35,357 bases of DNA, from positions 1 through 35,357 of the forward strand of contig CAUJGQ010000030.1 in NCBI GenBank assembly GCA_963170165.1, in the 5' to 3' direction. The position numbers and the translations under genes are program-made. This stretch comes from Chloroflexota bacterium (GTDB lineage: Bacteria; Chloroflexota; Dehalococcoidia; CAUJGQ01). This document shows, one piece after another, positions 850 through 17,663 of the stretch; positions within the stretch are counted from its first letter, which is position 1; every line of letters starts with the position of its first letter. The notes under the pieces are model-generated. The model searched no databases and was not told the origin of the DNA. It worked only from the letters and a program-made list of their open reading frames with translations.

Positions 850-1518
850 TCACGACGGCCAGCGGCCGGTTTCCTTCTGCTGGTCCTCGTACGCGCGCGT
901 GATGGCAATCAGCACAGCGTCAGCAACCTGGGCGATGTGGTCATGCGCCTCAGCCGACCGGTCCGGCGTCAGGCTGTGACGGGCAGCCAGTTGGGCCACG
1001 GTCTCTTCGAGCGAGCGGCGGAAGAAGGTGAACGCCTCGACCGTGGTGCTGAGCGGCAACCCGCCTGCTGCGAGTTCCAGCCCGTATTCGTGCCCGAGCG
1101 CCCGTGCCTCTACAAGCAGCCGTGCTTTCCCGCGGCGCGCAGCGAGATGCTCATCGGCCAGTGCGATCAGGCGCCGGCCCAGGGCGCGCATCCGCAGCCG
1201 GGCCGTCTCGTCAAGATCTTGGTGCCAGTGGGCGCTGGTCACCTGACGGCCCTGCAGGCGGCGGCGGATGCGCGCCAGCGCCGCATCGCCTACGGCGCCA
1301 ATGGCGTCACGTGGCGTGTCAGGGGCATCGAGCAGCGCGCGGATGTCGGCCTCGGCAAACCGCCGGTGACCGCCCGGGGTGCGGAAGGTGCGCACGCGGC
1401 CCTCGTCGGCCCATCGCCGCAAGGTGGTCTCGTTGACGCCGAGCAGCTGGCAGGCGCGACCGAGCGATAGCCAGCCATCCGCCGAACCGGTCCCCTTGCT
1501 CTGATGGGGTGCGGGCAT
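850..1518 (-). CDS. HTH (MerR/excisionase-type) regulator with helical C-terminal domain
   Basis: A 222-residue protein. Residues 16-63 form a winged-helix DNA-binding unit of the MerR/excisionase type: WLSLGRACQLLGV, then TTLRRWADEGRV and the wing TPGGHRRF. The remaining ~150 residues are predicted helical, with a segment around PLSTTVEAFTFFRRSL that resembles the helical N-domains of RsbR-type or PucR-type sensors. That resemblance is from pattern only. No cofactor motif is visible. The ATG at 1518 has GGAG nine bases upstream, and the stop of the holin-like gene is only 4 bases before it, so the two are probably translationally linked. It is likely a one-component transcription factor with an unknown signal. 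It sits between riboflavin genes and a tetrapyrrole gene, but no target site can be assigned. Confidence 0.75.
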   Translation of the reverse strand: MPAPHQSKGTGSADGWLSLGRACQLLGVNETTLRRWADEGRVRTFRTPGGHRRFAEADIRALLDAPDTPRDAIGAVGDAALARIRRRLQGRQVTSAHWHQDLDETARLRMRALGRRLIALADEHLAARRGKARLLVEARALGHEYGLELAAGGLPLSTTVEAFTFFRRSLEETVAQLAARHSLTPDRSAEAHDHIAQVADAVLIAITRAYEDQQKETGRWPS

Positions 1519-1522
1519 GGTG

Positions 1523-1903
1523 CTACTCCAGCGCCGTGGAGATGATCCAGCTTACGACAGAGATGATGATCGCACCCACCAGCGCGGGCCCAAACCCATC
1601 GACGGTGACGTTCGCCCCGAGTTGATCCGAGAGCCAAGCGGCAATGCCCAGGATTGCGGCGTTCACCACCAGCAAGAACAGGCCAAGCGTGAGCAGGATC
1701 AGCGGACAGGTGAGCAGCTGCAACGCCGGCTTGGCGATGGCATTCACCAGGCCGAAGACGGCCGCCATGACGGCATATGACGGCCAGCCAGAGATGTGAA
1801 TTCCACCCACCAGAGCATCTGCAACAAACAGCGCCGCAGCGTTGATCAGGAAGCGGATGGCGATGTCACGCAGGCGGTACTCGCGGCTGCCGATGGCGAT
1901 CAT
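1523..1903 (-). CDS. Four-TM holin-like membrane protein (PF04020 type)
   Basis: A 126-residue hydrophobic protein with four predicted membrane segments: about residues 15-35, 43-62, 66-92 and 106-124. The pattern, with GGIHISGW after TM1, NAIAKPALQLLTCPLI in the middle and a conserved LGLFLLVVNA segment, fits the PF04020 family ('mycobacterial 4-TMS phage holin'). Despite the name, this family is widespread in ordinary bacterial chromosomes and its role is unknown. There are no phage genes around it. It lies 24 bases downstream of ribH and 4 bases upstream of the HTH regulator on the same strand, so it probably belongs to the tail of the riboflavin transcript. Function is not assigned beyond membrane location. 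Confidence 0.8.
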   Translation of the reverse strand: MIAIGSREYRLRDIAIRFLINAAALFVADALVGGIHISGWPSYAVMAAVFGLVNAIAKPALQLLTCPLILLTLGLFLLVVNAAILGIAAWLSDQLGANVTVDGFGPALVGAIIISVVSWIISTALE

Positions 1904-6887: not shown

Positions 6888-8132
6888 CTAAATCGCGCCT
6901 ACCGCCGCTAGCAAGCGCATATCCGCCAGGCTCAGGCCGAGCTCGCCCGCGTAGATCGCGTGGTTGTGCTCCCCGATCCGCGGCGGCCGCGGCCCGCTCA
7001 GCCAGGGTGTGGCACTCATCCGGAAGGGGGCGCCCGGATAGCGCAGTGTCTCCCCAAGCTCCGGGTGTGGCACCGCCGCCCAGAAGTCCCGCGCCGCCAG
7101 CTGCGCGCTCTCTACCAGGTCCTTTGCCGAGGATGCCTGGGTGACGTACAGGCCAAAGTCCTGGCCCTCGGTATGGAGCGCCGCTGATGGCCTTGAGACG
7201 AAGTAGCGCTCTAGCGCCGCCTCTAGTTGCGCTTCCTGCGCTTCAGGTGGCGCACCCTCCCCAAACGCCGGCTTGCCCTGCCAGGCGTCAACCCGAAAAT
7301 CGAGTTTAATGCCGGCGCGGTCGAGCCAGCGCTGGATGTCCCGCCAGTTCTCCGGCCGCCGGTAGAAACCGATGAAGCCGTCCGCCGCGGCGTAAATCAG
7401 CCGGCGGCCGGGGCCGCCCGCACGTCCGCCACCCGTGCGGTGGGTGATGGCGCCCTTGGCGGGCCACAGCATCCGGTTGTTGGCCACCGCTGTGACGATG
7501 GTCTGCTGGACGGACACATCCATGTGCACCGCGGCGCCCTCCGAACGGGCGATGTTGAGGCCAATCAGCGCCGCTACCGCGCCGTGCAGGCCGGCCTGGG
7601 CGTTGGCCTGCTCGGCCGTCACCCGGACAGGCGGGCGGTCACGGTCGCCGCACAGGTACATAAGGCCGCCGGCCGCCATGCCAATCAGGTCACTGCCGGG
7701 GTCCGCGGCCCGGGGGCCATCCTGGCCGTACAGACTAATTGAGACCATTACCAGCGCCGGATTACGGGCGGCAAGCGCAGCGAAACCAGCGCCGGCCCGA
7801 TCAAGCGCCCCAACCTCCTGCGATTCGACGACGATCGCGGCGGTCTCCGCCAGCCGCAAGAAGAGAGCGCGGCCGTCGGCCGTGGCCGGATTGAGCGTGA
7901 TCGAGCGCTTGCCGGCATTGTGCTGGAACCAGTACAGCGACCGCTCGGGGTGGGGCACGCCATGATAGAACGGTGCAGTGCGACGCGATTGGTGCCCGCC
8001 GGGGGGCTCAATGCGGATTACGTCGGCGCCCACCCCCGCGAGCAGCCTGGTGCTGAGCGCGCCGAAGTAGCCCGACAGGTCCAGGACGCGTAGGCGGTCC
8101 AATGGGGCGGCGGTGGCCACGTTGGCAGTCAT
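6888..8132 (-). CDS. Class III CoA-transferase homologue lacking the catalytic Asp
   Basis: A 414-residue CaiB/BaiF-family protein with the usual N-terminal LRVLDLSGYFGALSTRLLAG and GADVIRIEPPGG, then AGKRSITLN (73-81) and the C-terminal PRIGEHN. At the position where the neighbouring genes carry the catalytic Asp, this protein reads AEQANAQAGLHGAVAAL, so Ala176 or Asn177 occupies that slot. Within the family some branches share this loss and their activity is not settled. It may be a non-catalytic partner of the protein encoded 25 bases downstream, or it may use another residue. It is the first gene of the CoA-transferase run. No promoter was recognised in the 387-base gap upstream. Confidence 0.82.
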   Translation of the reverse strand: MTANVATAAPLDRLRVLDLSGYFGALSTRLLAGVGADVIRIEPPGGHQSRRTAPFYHGVPHPERSLYWFQHNAGKRSITLNPATADGRALFLRLAETAAIVVESQEVGALDRAGAGFAALAARNPALVMVSISLYGQDGPRAADPGSDLIGMAAGGLMYLCGDRDRPPVRVTAEQANAQAGLHGAVAALIGLNIARSEGAAVHMDVSVQQTIVTAVANNRMLWPAKGAITHRTGGGRAGGPGRRLIYAAADGFIGFYRRPENWRDIQRWLDRAGIKLDFRVDAWQGKPAFGEGAPPEAQEAQLEAALERYFVSRPSAALHTEGQDFGLYVTQASSAKDLVESAQLAARDFWAAVPHPELGETLRYPGAPFRMSATPWLSGPRPPRIGEHNHAIYAGELGLSLADMRLLAAVGAI

Positions 8133-11754: not shown

Positions 11755-13647
<1,893 letters not shown>

Positions 13648-13677
13648 CCCTCGCGGTCTGCTGCCGATGACCAACGA

Positions 13678-13708
13678 ACCGGCTCCGCCTTGTGGAAGCG
13701 GAGCCGGT
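13678..13708 (+). terminator. Hairpin after dnaK
   Basis: An 11-bp perfect stem (ACCGGCTCCGC pairing with GCGGAGCCGGT) with a 9-base loop, 30 bases after the dnaK stop. There is no downstream T-run, which is common in GC-rich genomes. It is read as a terminator or 3'-end stabiliser of the hrcA-grpE-dnaK transcript. Confidence 0.65.
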
Positions 13709-13772
13709 CCGCTGTGTGCTGGCCTTCGTTACACTACGGGCATCACGCGTCGCGCCGGAGCCGCCCGCCATC

Positions 13773-14564
13773 ATGGCCCTTTCCCTCCGAACGGTCACCG
13801 TCACCCGTTACGTGGCGCCACTGCGCGAAGGTGGCTCGCTCCCGGCGATTGTCGAGGCCGATGACCTCGGCACGTACGTGCTCAAGTTCCGAGGCGCGGG
13901 TCAGGGGCCGCGGGCGCTGGTGGCCGAGCTGGTCTCCGGCGAGATTGCGCGCGTGCTCGGCCTGCCGGTGCCGGAGCTGGTCTTCGCGCACCTAGACCCC
14001 GTGCTTGGGCGGAACGAAGGCGATCCCGAGATTCAGGATCTGATTCGCGCTTCCGCCGGGCTCAATCTCGCGATGGACTTCCTGCCTGGGGCGTTCGCCT
14101 ACGACCCGCTCACCGGGCCGCCGCTGGAACCTGACCTCGCATCCGCGATTGTCTGGTTTGACGCGCTGGTGACCAACGTCGACCGCACCGTCCGGAACAC
14201 GAACATGCTCGTCTGGCATCGCCGTCCCTACCTGATCGACAATGGCGCATCGCTCTACATGCACTTTGCCTGGCAAAACGCCGCAGCCCGCGCCCGATCA
14301 CCCTTCCTGCAGGTCAAGGATCACGTGCTGCTGCGGCAGGCTTCGACGCTGTCAGAGGTCGATGACCGCCTGGCCGCTTTGCTGCTGCCGGAGGTTCTGA
14401 GCGAGATCGCGGCACAGATCCCAGATGAGTGGCTCCCAGAGGAGGAAATGTTCGCCACGGCGGCCGGGCAGCGAGCGGCGTACGTTTCGTGGCTGTCTGA
14501 CCGGTTGGTACCACCACGCGCCTTTACCACCGAGGCCATCCGTGTCCGATCTCAGCTCGTATGA
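13773..14564 (+). CDS. HipA-like kinase (HipA_2 type)
   Basis: A 263-residue protein resembling the kinase core of HipA, the Ser/Thr kinase toxin. Seen: a beta-strand-rich N-lobe with Lys38 in YVLKF, candidate for ATP binding. The catalytic-loop-like segment is WFDALVTNVDRTVRNTN (128-144), with Asp137 and Asn142/Asn144. LIDNGAS (154-160) has Asp156 in the DFG-equivalent position. This compact form corresponds to the stand-alone HipA-like family, usually found beside a DUF3037 gene rather than with the HipB antitoxin. Exactly that neighbour follows, overlapping by 23 bases. A longer frame from 13692 lacks a ribosome site and runs into the dnaK hairpin, so the ATG at 13773 is used. Target and toxicity are unknown. 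Confidence 0.8.
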   Translation: MALSLRTVTVTRYVAPLREGGSLPAIVEADDLGTYVLKFRGAGQGPRALVAELVSGEIARVLGLPVPELVFAHLDPVLGRNEGDPEIQDLIRASAGLNLAMDFLPGAFAYDPLTGPPLEPDLASAIVWFDALVTNVDRTVRNTNMLVWHRRPYLIDNGASLYMHFAWQNAAARARSPFLQVKDHVLLRQASTLSEVDDRLAALLLPEVLSEIAAQIPDEWLPEEEMFATAAGQRAAYVSWLSDRLVPPRAFTTEAIRVRSQLV

Positions 14565-14955
14565 CGTCGCAGCCATTCGCATCGTGCCGCGCGTGGATCG
14601 GGAGGAGTTCCTGAACGCGGGTGTCGTGCTGCTGTGCCGGTCCCGGCGCTTCTTGGGTGCACGGCTGGCCGTGAGCCCTGACAGGCTCGCTCGGCTGGCG
14701 ACGGACCTGGACATCGACGATGTTCGCCGCCACCTGACCTTGGTCCCTTTGATTTGCTCCGGCGGCGCGGCTGCCGGAGTGCTCGGCGCTCTTACCCAGC
14801 AGGAACGATTTCACTGGCTGACAACTCCGCGCAGCACCGTCATCCAGCCCGGCCCGGTGCATAGCGGCCTGTGCGCGGACCCGCGAGCCGAAATTGAGCG
14901 GTTGTTCGTGCTGTTTACGGGGGGGCTGGCGGAAAGTGTGCCACCGGCAGGATGA
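14542..14955 (+). CDS. DUF3037 family protein
   Basis: A 137-residue protein. YDVAAIRIVPRVDREEFLNA with GVVLLCRSRRFLGAR at its N-terminus is the hallmark of DUF3037 (established family pattern). The C-terminal part, GLCADPRAEIERLFVLFT, also fits. The GTG at 14542 lies inside the end of the HipA-like gene, so the two are translated in overlapping frames (23 bases shared). DUF3037 proteins are regularly encoded next to HipA-like kinases and may be a substrate, regulator or partner. No DNA-binding motif is visible, so it does not look like a HipB-type antitoxin. Confidence 0.78.
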   Translation: MSDLSSYDVAAIRIVPRVDREEFLNAGVVLLCRSRRFLGARLAVSPDRLARLATDLDIDDVRRHLTLVPLICSGGAAAGVLGALTQQERFHWLTTPRSTVIQPGPVHSGLCADPRAEIERLFVLFTGGLAESVPPAG

Positions 14956-14991
14956 CCCGCCTGCGAGCAGTGGCAGTGAGGGGGCTATCCC

Positions 14992-16182
14992 GTGCGCCGT
15001 TCCGCTCCCGCCCTCGTGCTTGCCGGTATCGTGCTCGTTGCCGGCTGGATCGCCGCTTCTGCAGGCGCGCAACCGGCAGTACCCGCCGTGCATCAATCGC
15101 GCTACGCTGAGCTGGACGCGGCCCTGACAGCCATCGAACAGCTCGCCGCCGCGGCGCCGGGCTCAGACACCTTCACCAACCTCTCCGTCGAACTCAACAC
15201 TGCCAACTCCAATCGGGGCGAAGCGTTGCTTGTCCCGGAGACCTGGCCGGCTGTCCTGCTCACGCTGGACCGGTTGCAGGAGATCGGTGTGTCCACCGTG
15301 GCGGTGAGCCTCAACTTCCCCGTGCTCGCTCCTGCCTTCCCTCGCGCCACGGATTACCTGGACTTCTACCGCCGCGTTGCCGCCGAGGTGCGCGCCCGTG
15401 ACCTGCGGCTGATCATCGAGACCAGCACGATTTTCCCGGACTTCAGCACGCTTCCGGTCGATTACCGTGGCCTGACGCGCGAGCAGTACAGCGACGAGAA
15501 ACGCGCGATGGCCGCGACGGTCTACACCGAGTTGCGGCCGGACTACCTGACCGTGGAGAGCGAGCCAGGCACGGTCACGCGCAATACCGGCGTGGTCTTC
15601 ACGCCCGAGCAGTTTGCCGCGCACGTCCAGCATGTGACGCAGGACCTGACCGGAGGCAGCACCCGGCTGGGGGCAGGCGCCGGCACCTGGGACAGCCTTG
15701 AGTACTTCCGTGCCCTGGCCGGCGTGCCGGCGCTGCACTACCTCGATCTGCACATTTACCCGATTACCGGTGGCCTCGTCACAGAGCGCGTGCCGCGCAT
15801 CATTGAGATCGCGCGGGCGGCGGGTAAGGGGCTGACCATCGGCGAATCGTGGCTGTACAAGACCGGCGCGGCCGAACTCGGCGGCACACCCGGCTCCGAA
15901 GCCGCGGTATTCGCCCGAGACGCCTTCGGCTTCTGGGCGCCGCTCGACCAGCGATTCATCGCCGCCCTCGCGACGTTGGGGCGCGGACACGGATTCGAAT
16001 TCGTCTCGTACTTCTGGATGACCTATCTGTTCGCTTACGTGCCGTATGAGGAGCGCACCGCTGAGCTGAGCCCGCCCGAGCTAACACGCGTGGCGAATCA
16101 ACTGGCTTACCGTGCCATGCTGGAAGGTAGGCGGTCCCCTACCGGTGACGTGCTGCGGGCGCTCCTGCGTCCCGCGCCGTAG
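14992..16182 (+). CDS. Exported TIM-barrel glycoside hydrolase-like protein
   Basis: A 396-residue protein with an N-terminal signal segment (about residues 5-26: hydrophobic core ALVLAGIVLVAGWIAASAGA, likely cleavage after AGA). The remainder alternates strands and helices like a clan-A (beta/alpha)8 barrel. LTVESEPGT (186-194), after a strand, and LTIGESWLY (281-289), near the last strands, place Glu189 or Glu191 and Glu285 as candidate acid/base and nucleophile. LHIYPI (253-258) is also typical of such barrels. No specific GH family was recognised. The GTG start has GAGGGGG just upstream. It is followed 71 bases later by a GT-C membrane protein, so the pair could act on cell-surface or environmental glycans. 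Confidence 0.6.
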   Translation: MRRSAPALVLAGIVLVAGWIAASAGAQPAVPAVHQSRYAELDAALTAIEQLAAAAPGSDTFTNLSVELNTANSNRGEALLVPETWPAVLLTLDRLQEIGVSTVAVSLNFPVLAPAFPRATDYLDFYRRVAAEVRARDLRLIIETSTIFPDFSTLPVDYRGLTREQYSDEKRAMAATVYTELRPDYLTVESEPGTVTRNTGVVFTPEQFAAHVQHVTQDLTGGSTRLGAGAGTWDSLEYFRALAGVPALHYLDLHIYPITGGLVTERVPRIIEIARAAGKGLTIGESWLYKTGAAELGGTPGSEAAVFARDAFGFWAPLDQRFIAALATLGRGHGFEFVSYFWMTYLFAYVPYEERTAELSPPELTRVANQLAYRAMLEGRRSPTGDVLRALLRPAP

Positions 16183-16253: not shown

Positions 16254-17663
16254 ATGACGGCGCGCCGGCGCTTCCTCCTTGGCCTGCTGATTGTTCAGCT
16301 CGGCGTTACGGTGGCCTATGCGCCCACCCTCAACGATTACTTCGCCGGCGATGACTTCCTCGTCATCGGTCCGGTTGGCCGGATGGGCGCCTGGGAGGTG
16401 ACCGCCAAAGCGTTTGTCATGCGTGATGACATTCCCTATTGGCGGCCCCTGGTAACGCCGCTGTACGCCCTCTACGTCCACGGCTTTGGCCTCAACCCGA
16501 TGCCATATCATCTCGTGGTGCTGGGGCTGCATCTCACCAATGTGACTCTGGTAGCAGTGGCCGCACGTCTGCTGCTGCGGCAGAGCGGCGTAGCGCTGGC
16601 GGCCGGGCTGCTGTTCGGTGTCCATGCGGCGCATACCCTGACCGTTGCGCAGATATCGTCGACGGTCGAGCTGTTCAGCGTCGTGTGGTATCTGGGCAGC
16701 GTGTGTGCCGCACTGTACTGGTTGAAGGTGCGGGGCCGGCCGGGCGCCGGCCGCTGGTACGGTGCGGCAGTCCTGTGCTTCGTGCTGGCGCTGCTGTCCA
16801 AAGAGTCGACGGCATCGGCGGCGGGTACCCTCACGGTGCTGTTTCTCTTGCGTGTCTACCTGCCTGGCCGGCAGGCCGCGCGCTTTGTGCGGGCGGTGGC
16901 GCCGTTCTGGCTGCTCGTGTTGCCGTACATTGCCTTCACCTATATCACCGACACTGAGGACCCAACAGGCATCACGCGGATGCTCTACGCACCAGGCTGG
17001 CATGTTCCTACAAACCTGTGGTGGATGGTCGCGCGGCTGGCCTGGCCGGTGGGGAATGGGCAGGGGCCGGTGATCAGCGCCGCCGCGCACACCGGCGCGG
17101 TGGCGGTCACGGCTGCCGCCCTTATCGTGGCGGTGCGCGGTCAGGCTGCCAGCCGCTTCCTTGTTGCCTGGATGGTCATTGCCATGACACCGCTGACCCT
17201 GTGGCGGCCGGACATGATGCTCAGCCGGTTCACGTATCAGGCAGCGGCGCCCTTTGCCATGCTTTGCGCCTGGGGTGGATGGCTGCTGCTCCGCCGGCTC
17301 CCACTGCGCCAGTCGCGGGCGCCGGTTGGGCTGGCCGCTCTGGCGATAGTGGCTGCGCTGCTGGCGTGGCTGACGGCCGGCCAGAACCGCGTACGCACCC
17401 GCGAGGCTGACTCCTACTTCTTGCTGGTGCACGAGCTGCGGCGGACCGTCCCGCAGCCGCCAGCAGGCAGCGAGGTGGTGATTATGGATGGACCATGGTC
17501 CGGCCCATTTCACGCCCTCTATTTGGAGGCCGTGGCTGAAACGCTGTATGGCCGCGACACGGTGCGCCTGCGAAACGTCGACTCGGGCGAGCCGGCGCCG
17601 GCGGTGTCGGCCGGCGCGGTGCTCCTGCGATACACCGGCTCGATGCTGGTAGCGGGCCGCTAG
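16254..17663 (+). CDS. Multi-TM GT-C-like glycosyltransferase family membrane protein
   Basis: A 469-residue protein with about ten hydrophobic segments. After the first membrane helix comes LNDYFAGDDFLVIG, with Asp33-Asp34. An acidic pair in the first outer loop is the hallmark of GT-C glycosyltransferases that use polyprenyl-phosphate sugars (ArnT, PMT and relatives). A cytoplasmic-type loop LLSKEST and a soluble C-terminal tail of ~90 residues follow. The ATG at 16254 follows a TATACT hexamer (16206-16211) that could be a -10. Donor and acceptor are unknown. Its stop codon overlaps that of the convergent FAD oxidase in a shared CTAG. Confidence 0.65.
   Translation: MTARRRFLLGLLIVQLGVTVAYAPTLNDYFAGDDFLVIGPVGRMGAWEVTAKAFVMRDDIPYWRPLVTPLYALYVHGFGLNPMPYHLVVLGLHLTNVTLVAVAARLLLRQSGVALAAGLLFGVHAAHTLTVAQISSTVELFSVVWYLGSVCAALYWLKVRGRPGAGRWYGAAVLCFVLALLSKESTASAAGTLTVLFLLRVYLPGRQAARFVRAVAPFWLLVLPYIAFTYITDTEDPTGITRMLYAPGWHVPTNLWWMVARLAWPVGNGQGPVISAAAHTGAVAVTAAALIVAVRGQAASRFLVAWMVIAMTPLTLWRPDMMLSRFTYQAAAPFAMLCAWGGWLLLRRLPLRQSRAPVGLAALAIVAALLAWLTAGQNRVRTREADSYFLLVHELRRTVPQPPAGSEVVIMDGPWSGPFHALYLEAVAETLYGRDTVRLRNVDSGEPAPAVSAGAVLLRYTGSMLVAGR

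Follow-up and report, generated by a model that had tools for sequence, protein, structure and literature searches.

The DNA analyzed here, a window of 35,357 nucleotides from a Chloroflexota bacterium (contig CAUJGQ010000030.1), carries a gene for a small kinase overlapping a gene for a DUF3037 protein, and judged from the sequences this pair is a short, distinct form of the known HipA_2-DUF3037 kind. By the features tested it is not a HipAD system, as the partner protein has no second half and the setting is not mobile, although the two may still work alike. The short form looks like a chromosomal resident, single-copy as a rule, clumped by genus and located amid unrelated metabolic genes, and it is probably regulatory rather than a mobile defence system.

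The pair in the window and its gene junction

The first gene product matched HipA_2 (PF20613, E 2e-16) and the second DUF3037 (PF11236, E 1.3e-38), both above the Pfam cut-offs (Table 1). The window genome has one copy of each, among ordinary genes. The residues named in the first-pass annotation as kept by the kinase, Lys38, Asp137, Asn142/Asn144 and Asp156, were indeed present and, together with E52, were invariant in two alignments of short-form kinases (45 and 43 rows). Both the family score and the catalytic Lys, Asp, Asn and Asp place the protein in HipA_2. The claim that the locus encodes no HipB or other DNA-binding antitoxin was also borne out, since neither the flanking genes nor nine overlapping or antisense frames in 13424-15990 gave an HTH or HipB match in Pfam. 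Promoter and terminator scans at the window locus found none. The two downstream genes (14992-16182 and 16254-17663) have no Pfam match.

Table 1. Features of the kinase-DUF3037 locus in the window
Feature	Position	Strand	Basis
HipA_2 kinase, 263 aa, active-site residues intact	13773..14564	+	Pfam, alignments, AF2 model
DUF3037 protein, 137 aa, DUF3037 domain alone, without C-terminal half	14542..14955	+	Pfam, PADLOC profile, AF2
23-nt kinase/DUF3037 overlap	14542..14564	+	frame comparison
Inverted repeat, 17-nt arms, 88%, without T run, between dnaK and kinase gene	13672..13714	+	

The AF2 model of the kinase (pLDDT 95.0) showed a protein-kinase-like fold of the CtkA/PI4K-II/Fam20/HipA group in structure comparison. 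The closest solved fold was CtkA of Helicobacter pylori (Z 15.2, rmsd 3.1, 205 residues), which differs at 15% identity, followed by PI4K-II-beta (Z 12.9, rmsd 4.2, 228 residues), Legionella HipT (Z 11.5, rmsd 3.7, 189 residues) and Shewanella HipA (Z 11.3, rmsd 3.6, 187 residues). As the kinase belongs to this wider group of folds, the label "HipA-like" tells little about its target. We know of no DUF3037 partner of CtkA. The N-terminal subdomain of HipA was absent, with model residues 19-257 aligning to residues 149-429 of Shewanella HipA and Pfam assigning HipA_2 only. In hipBA modules, the partner gene hipB lies upstream of the kinase gene. The window pair resembles them in the HipA-like kinase fold, but has neither HipB nor the N-terminal subdomain, carries its partner gene downstream, and has a kinase fold nearer to CtkA. 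It is like hipBST in combining a short kinase with a non-HTH partner, but again differs in having no HipB; DUF3037 gave no sequence or fold match to HipS among those listed, a comparison that remote likeness may escape.

The DUF3037 protein was modeled with similar quality (pLDDT 94.2), and its fold had no PDB match at E 0.001 among those listed by Foldseek, the best Z being 2.9 (VIA), while the sequence-profile search gave 0 matches. A missing fold match of this model does not prove a new fold. Four residues in the latter half of the short DUF3037 protein, R89, S98, H107 and G109, were invariant in the alignments. The family of plant RST1 and human focadhesin is presumably DUF3730, distinct from DUF3037. 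It is under the name DUF3037 that these two proteins appear in PMC6711988.

The overlap of 23 bases given in the first-pass annotation was confirmed. The DUF3037 gene starts with GTG in a reading frame different from that of the kinase, this GTG sitting within kinase Arg-Val codons and the kinase TGA within codons for Tyr-Asp in the first strand of DUF3037. The kinase stop fell at one and the same position of the DUF3037 gene, 5 nt beyond the point where the DUF3037 domain begins, in 53 of the 71 short pairs but in none of the 7 long ones (defined below). The stop codon is TGA in 51 of these 53 pairs, and in 49 of them a start codon precedes the end of the stop by 23 or 20 nt. The 53 pairs span six phyla (Chloroflexota, Acidobacteriota, Bacteroidota, Calditrichota, Actinomycetota and Cyanobacteriota), including a Rubrobacter and a Leptolyngbya. 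The junctions of the long, HipAD-type form were 4-nt overlaps or gaps and never the 23-nt register. In the AF2 models of the window proteins, the overlapped ends correspond to a predicted DUF3037 strand and the last kinase helix, both of high confidence. We read the overlap as a fossil, kept in place by constraints on both proteins, and as a likely site of translational coupling. One pair, of Rubrobacter marinus (L014, 9187-10416), has a kinase frame that does not have the usual stop and crosses the whole DUF3037 gene, which could be a sequencing error. No natural fusion of kinase and DUF3037 was seen among the frames listed.

Short and long forms

The first-pass annotation described the role of DUF3037 as undescribed, a statement now out of date, since PMC12548924 and PMC13092281 describe HipA-type kinases with DUF3037 proteins. 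In the Retron-Sda1 operon of Sphingobacterium, deletion of the HipA kinase abolished defence against phage Bas51 and deletion of DUF3037 was toxic (PMC12548924). The system DS-6, renamed HipAD, pairs a HipA-type kinase with a DUF3037+DUF1829 protein; a predicted catalytic kinase residue was required for defence and a complex was predicted by AlphaFold3 (PMC13092281, which cites Brenes and Laub 2025 as the primary source for HipAD). HipA_2 plus DUF3037 is also the PADLOC candidate PDC-M66 (models PDC-M66A and PDC-M66B). The window pair shares gene order, the HipA_2 kinase, the DUF3037 domain and adjacent co-directional genes with HipAD/DS-6/PDC-M66, and the combination of kinase and DUF3037 with Retron-Sda1. 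The HipAD partner has a second half, named DUF1829 in the DefensePredictor paper (PMC13092281), and the Retron-Sda1 protein is described in PMC12548924 as carrying a C-terminal region similar to a retron DNA-binding protein; the short partner has no such half. Literature searches on DUF3037, HipAD and HipA family kinases brought up no study of the short form.

When 78 unique pairs were sorted, with more than 75 residues after the DUF3037 domain defining the long form, 71 were short and 7 long. The short partners were 124-187 aa (median 132) and the long ones 266-295 aa. The second half of the HipAD-type partner (about 275-280 aa in all) was absent from the window protein, whose residues 6-66 matched PDC-M66B at profile positions 3-63 of 281 only; this profile matched in 77 of 400 Chloroflexota genomes, in none past position 145. 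The DUF3037 matches in Chitinophagaceae comprised 58 short ones at 129-167 bits, five long ones at 28-57 bits and one fragment at a contig end. In the genome searches, Pfam score and frame length both set the two forms apart.

The kinases also tended to separate. In a 90-kinase tree (69 short and 21 long, two broken short kinases excluded), all the short ones were located on one side of a branch with an SH-aLRT of 83, a moderate support for a split that meets very long branches, which three of the long rows have; the tree was rooted at the midpoint only and its root is hence arbitrary. The window kinase grouped with that of the only other genome in its family (L005) and with a class relative (L004), and the tree as a whole mixed phyla.

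Distribution, selection and genomic setting

DUF3037 was detected in 82 of 400 Chloroflexota genomes, 81 of which carry one short copy (split into two fragments in G151), and the remaining one, G399, has two long forms. As had been claimed, DUF3037 is regularly found beside a HipA-like kinase: 79 of 83 matches (one of the two G151 fragment rows being excluded) had HipA_2 directly upstream on the same strand, so that the pairing is beyond chance and nearly obligate. Of the four exceptions, one lay at a contig end, two were long forms whose kinases have diverged, and one had a kinase with an internal deletion. Conversely, the unpaired Chloroflexota HipA_2 matches above the cut-off comprised one at a contig end, a further kinase located behind a pair, and a borderline match of 27 bits. 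In Chitinophagaceae, one short copy was present in 58 of 117 genomes and the long form in five, four of these beside a short one. Two kinases in this family (G516 and G609) had no DUF3037 match; their alignments begin at profile position 17-20, as do those of most long kinases in the family, and we take them as probable long forms.

Two broken loci were found in which the overlapping DUF3037 gene was intact, one with a kinase missing about profile positions 25-138 (L011/L171, 2092-2535) and one with a kinase missing the first 182 positions (L035, 5619-6005). The reverse, an intact kinase with a broken or absent DUF3037 gene, was not seen for the short form. This pattern, from two cases, fits what toxin/antitoxin logic would predict. 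At a tandem locus in G331 (L167), a DUF3037 gene (1062-1529, minus strand) lies between kinase genes at 1453-2286 and 178-1107, both on the minus strand, and apparently one DUF3037 partner serves two kinases.

The presence of the pair was concordant within genera, in 34 of 36 same-genus pairs of one family compared with 19.1 after shuffling (3 of 20000 shuffles reached that level) and in 46 of 62 of another compared with 32.5 (130 of 20000). Within the genus g134, mean dN/dS was 0.065 for the kinase and 0.133 for DUF3037 (overlap excluded, 14 usable of 21 pairs each), ratios indicating that the short pair is under purifying selection; higher values, 0.22 and 0.28, were obtained from one pair in the window genome's own family. 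Presence was patchy (7 of 100 relatives, and 82 of 400 genomes in the phylum), and together with the mixing of phyla in the kinase tree this makes old transfer likely. Its neighbours were kept in g134 and changed across families, and the most frequent Pfam family occurred in at most 4 of 148 short-form neighbour genes.

Both proteins were compared by tblastn with 50,697 phage records, in which no short form was matched; DUF3037 matched no phage record at all, and the two matches of the kinase were both long forms (the second by ORF search). The kinase matched 10 plasmid records and DUF3037 six. Five of the 10 kinase records, from Parabacteroides, Bacteroides, Nonomuraea and two Streptomyces, showed 46-53% identity over most of the kinase. 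A few short pairs are on plasmid records, and that of Parabacteroides lies amid ordinary genes such as bamA, pyrE and argH and that of Bacteroides amid glycoside hydrolase genes. Viral-contig scans detected 0 short and 68 long loci, although they used a few peptide patterns with uncertain sensitivity for the short form, the same method having found only 20 genome loci with a single-protein query. The long form was located in lambdoid phages, plasmids and viral contigs, whereas the short form was found on neither phages nor viral contigs, and GenBank PV340545 (Escherichia phage PhiR5_1) annotates a HipA toxin and a HipD antitoxin. The window pair itself, single-copy and with ordinary neighbours, gave no sign of prophage or mobile carriage.

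A survey of defence genes around the pair, suggested in the first-pass annotation, was run with PADLOC on 148 neighbour genes at 41 loci, chosen by size from 182 at 47 short loci and scanned without a random-gene control; the genes had been called with a simple in-house tool, which in GC-rich loci put some of them in the wrong frame. At E 1e-10, the matches were mad3 (three), C3a156 oxidoreductase (two), and GlgB, mad2 and AriA (one each), which we read as probably generic enzyme models. On these matches, a defence-island link of the short form was rejected. The suggested phage-response unit likewise found no footing for the short form in these matches or in the phage and viral-contig searches. 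The neighbours of the long form (27 genes at five loci) gave single weak PADLOC matches, too few for comparison. Upstream of a long-form pair in G399 (L087), a frame on the minus strand (7286-7531) is a fragment that resembles by eye the start of a SIR2-type domain.

Proposed action and competing explanations

We favor, at about even confidence, a coupled kinase and its cognate inhibitor, related to HipAD and resident on the chromosome. The first gene would encode a small atypical kinase of Ser/Thr type, and ribosomes ending its translation may restart at the overlapping GTG, so that the DUF3037 protein would be made together with the kinase. DUF3037 would bind the kinase and hold it inactive in the manner of an antitoxin, until stress frees the kinase to phosphorylate a putative target and slow growth. 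The short form would have lost, or never had, the C-terminal half of the partner. Kinase-dependent defence and toxicity on DUF3037 loss are known from the long forms only. For the short form, the data show the anatomy, pairing, conserved junction, kinase split in the tree, distribution, selection and single-chain folds described above, whereas coupling, binding, inhibition, target and physiological role are inferred. The earlier designation as toxin-antitoxin-like thus draws support from the published genetics of the long-form relatives Retron-Sda1 and DS-6/HipAD and nothing from the short form itself, while the alternative term, regulatory, is the best fit to the single-copy, genus-clumped and purifying pattern.

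An abortive-infection toxin-antitoxin like HipAD, in which phage would free the kinase and growth would stop, the missing half being an add-on for autoregulation or DNA binding, is a possible but less probable explanation. The same two domains occur in the same order as in HipAD, PDC-M66A matches the window kinase (E 9.6e-16) and another short form (E 1.8e-23), and the long forms were shown to defend (PMC12548924 and PMC13092281). The absence of short forms from the phages and viral contigs searched and of clear defence genes among the neighbours argues against it, as do the single copy, the stability within genera and the strong purifying selection; the DUF3037 proteins of both characterized systems, moreover, carry a C-terminal extension according to the same papers. 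Resident growth or stress control is thus likelier than mobile phage defence, because the C-terminal half is absent and the pair is single-copy, genus-stable and outside any defence or mobile context, although resident and defensive roles are compatible.

Less probable still, DUF3037 would be an activator, an adaptor or a substrate-presenting subunit of a housekeeping kinase complex, with no toxin logic in the short form. Stability within genera under purifying selection agrees with such a complex, as do R89, S98, H107 and G109, the four residues invariant in the latter half of the short partner, and the absence of a uniform own-promoter layout (a same-strand gene ends less than 60 nt upstream in 12 of 54 short loci, five of them in one genus). 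The toxic DUF3037 deletion in Retron-Sda1 (PMC12548924) speaks against it, and the loci that keep DUF3037 intact beside a broken kinase would be unexpected for an obligate subunit. Heat shock offers a very improbable explanation, namely a regulator working with hrcA-grpE-dnaK. The pair does follow the heat-shock operon in the window genome as the first-pass annotation stated, 125 nt downstream of dnaK and on its strand, but a strong inverted repeat separates dnaK from the kinase gene, and the adjacency was found in none of the other 77 loci, that of the same-family genome included (19 of the 78 loci surveyed span 8 kb or less); the sole other match (L016) was weak, at 26% identity, and lay in a gene that is MreB-like by eye. 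As a general feature, the heat-shock link was rejected. The coupled, resident kinase and inhibitor thus stays ahead of the defence module, and the latter ahead of the housekeeping complex.

More broadly, and with doubt somewhat outweighing belief, the short pair may be an old sedentary module of at least six phyla with a frozen overlap and a job in cellular signalling, HipAD being its mobile sibling, which arose or was maintained with an additional C-terminal half for sensing or DNA binding, and DUF3037 a new fold of kinase inhibitor. The published survey and PADLOC pool all pairs of HipA_2 and DUF3037 under a single phage defence candidate, PDC-M66, and if the chromosomal form, the common one, acts as a resident regulator, counts of defence systems would in part be too high. 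A phage-defence system and a resident kinase circuit could then also be compared component by component, as they share the kinase and inhibitor domain and differ in the extra half. With its unusual overlap kept across phyla, the pair is a compact target for the discovery of bacterial kinase substrates.
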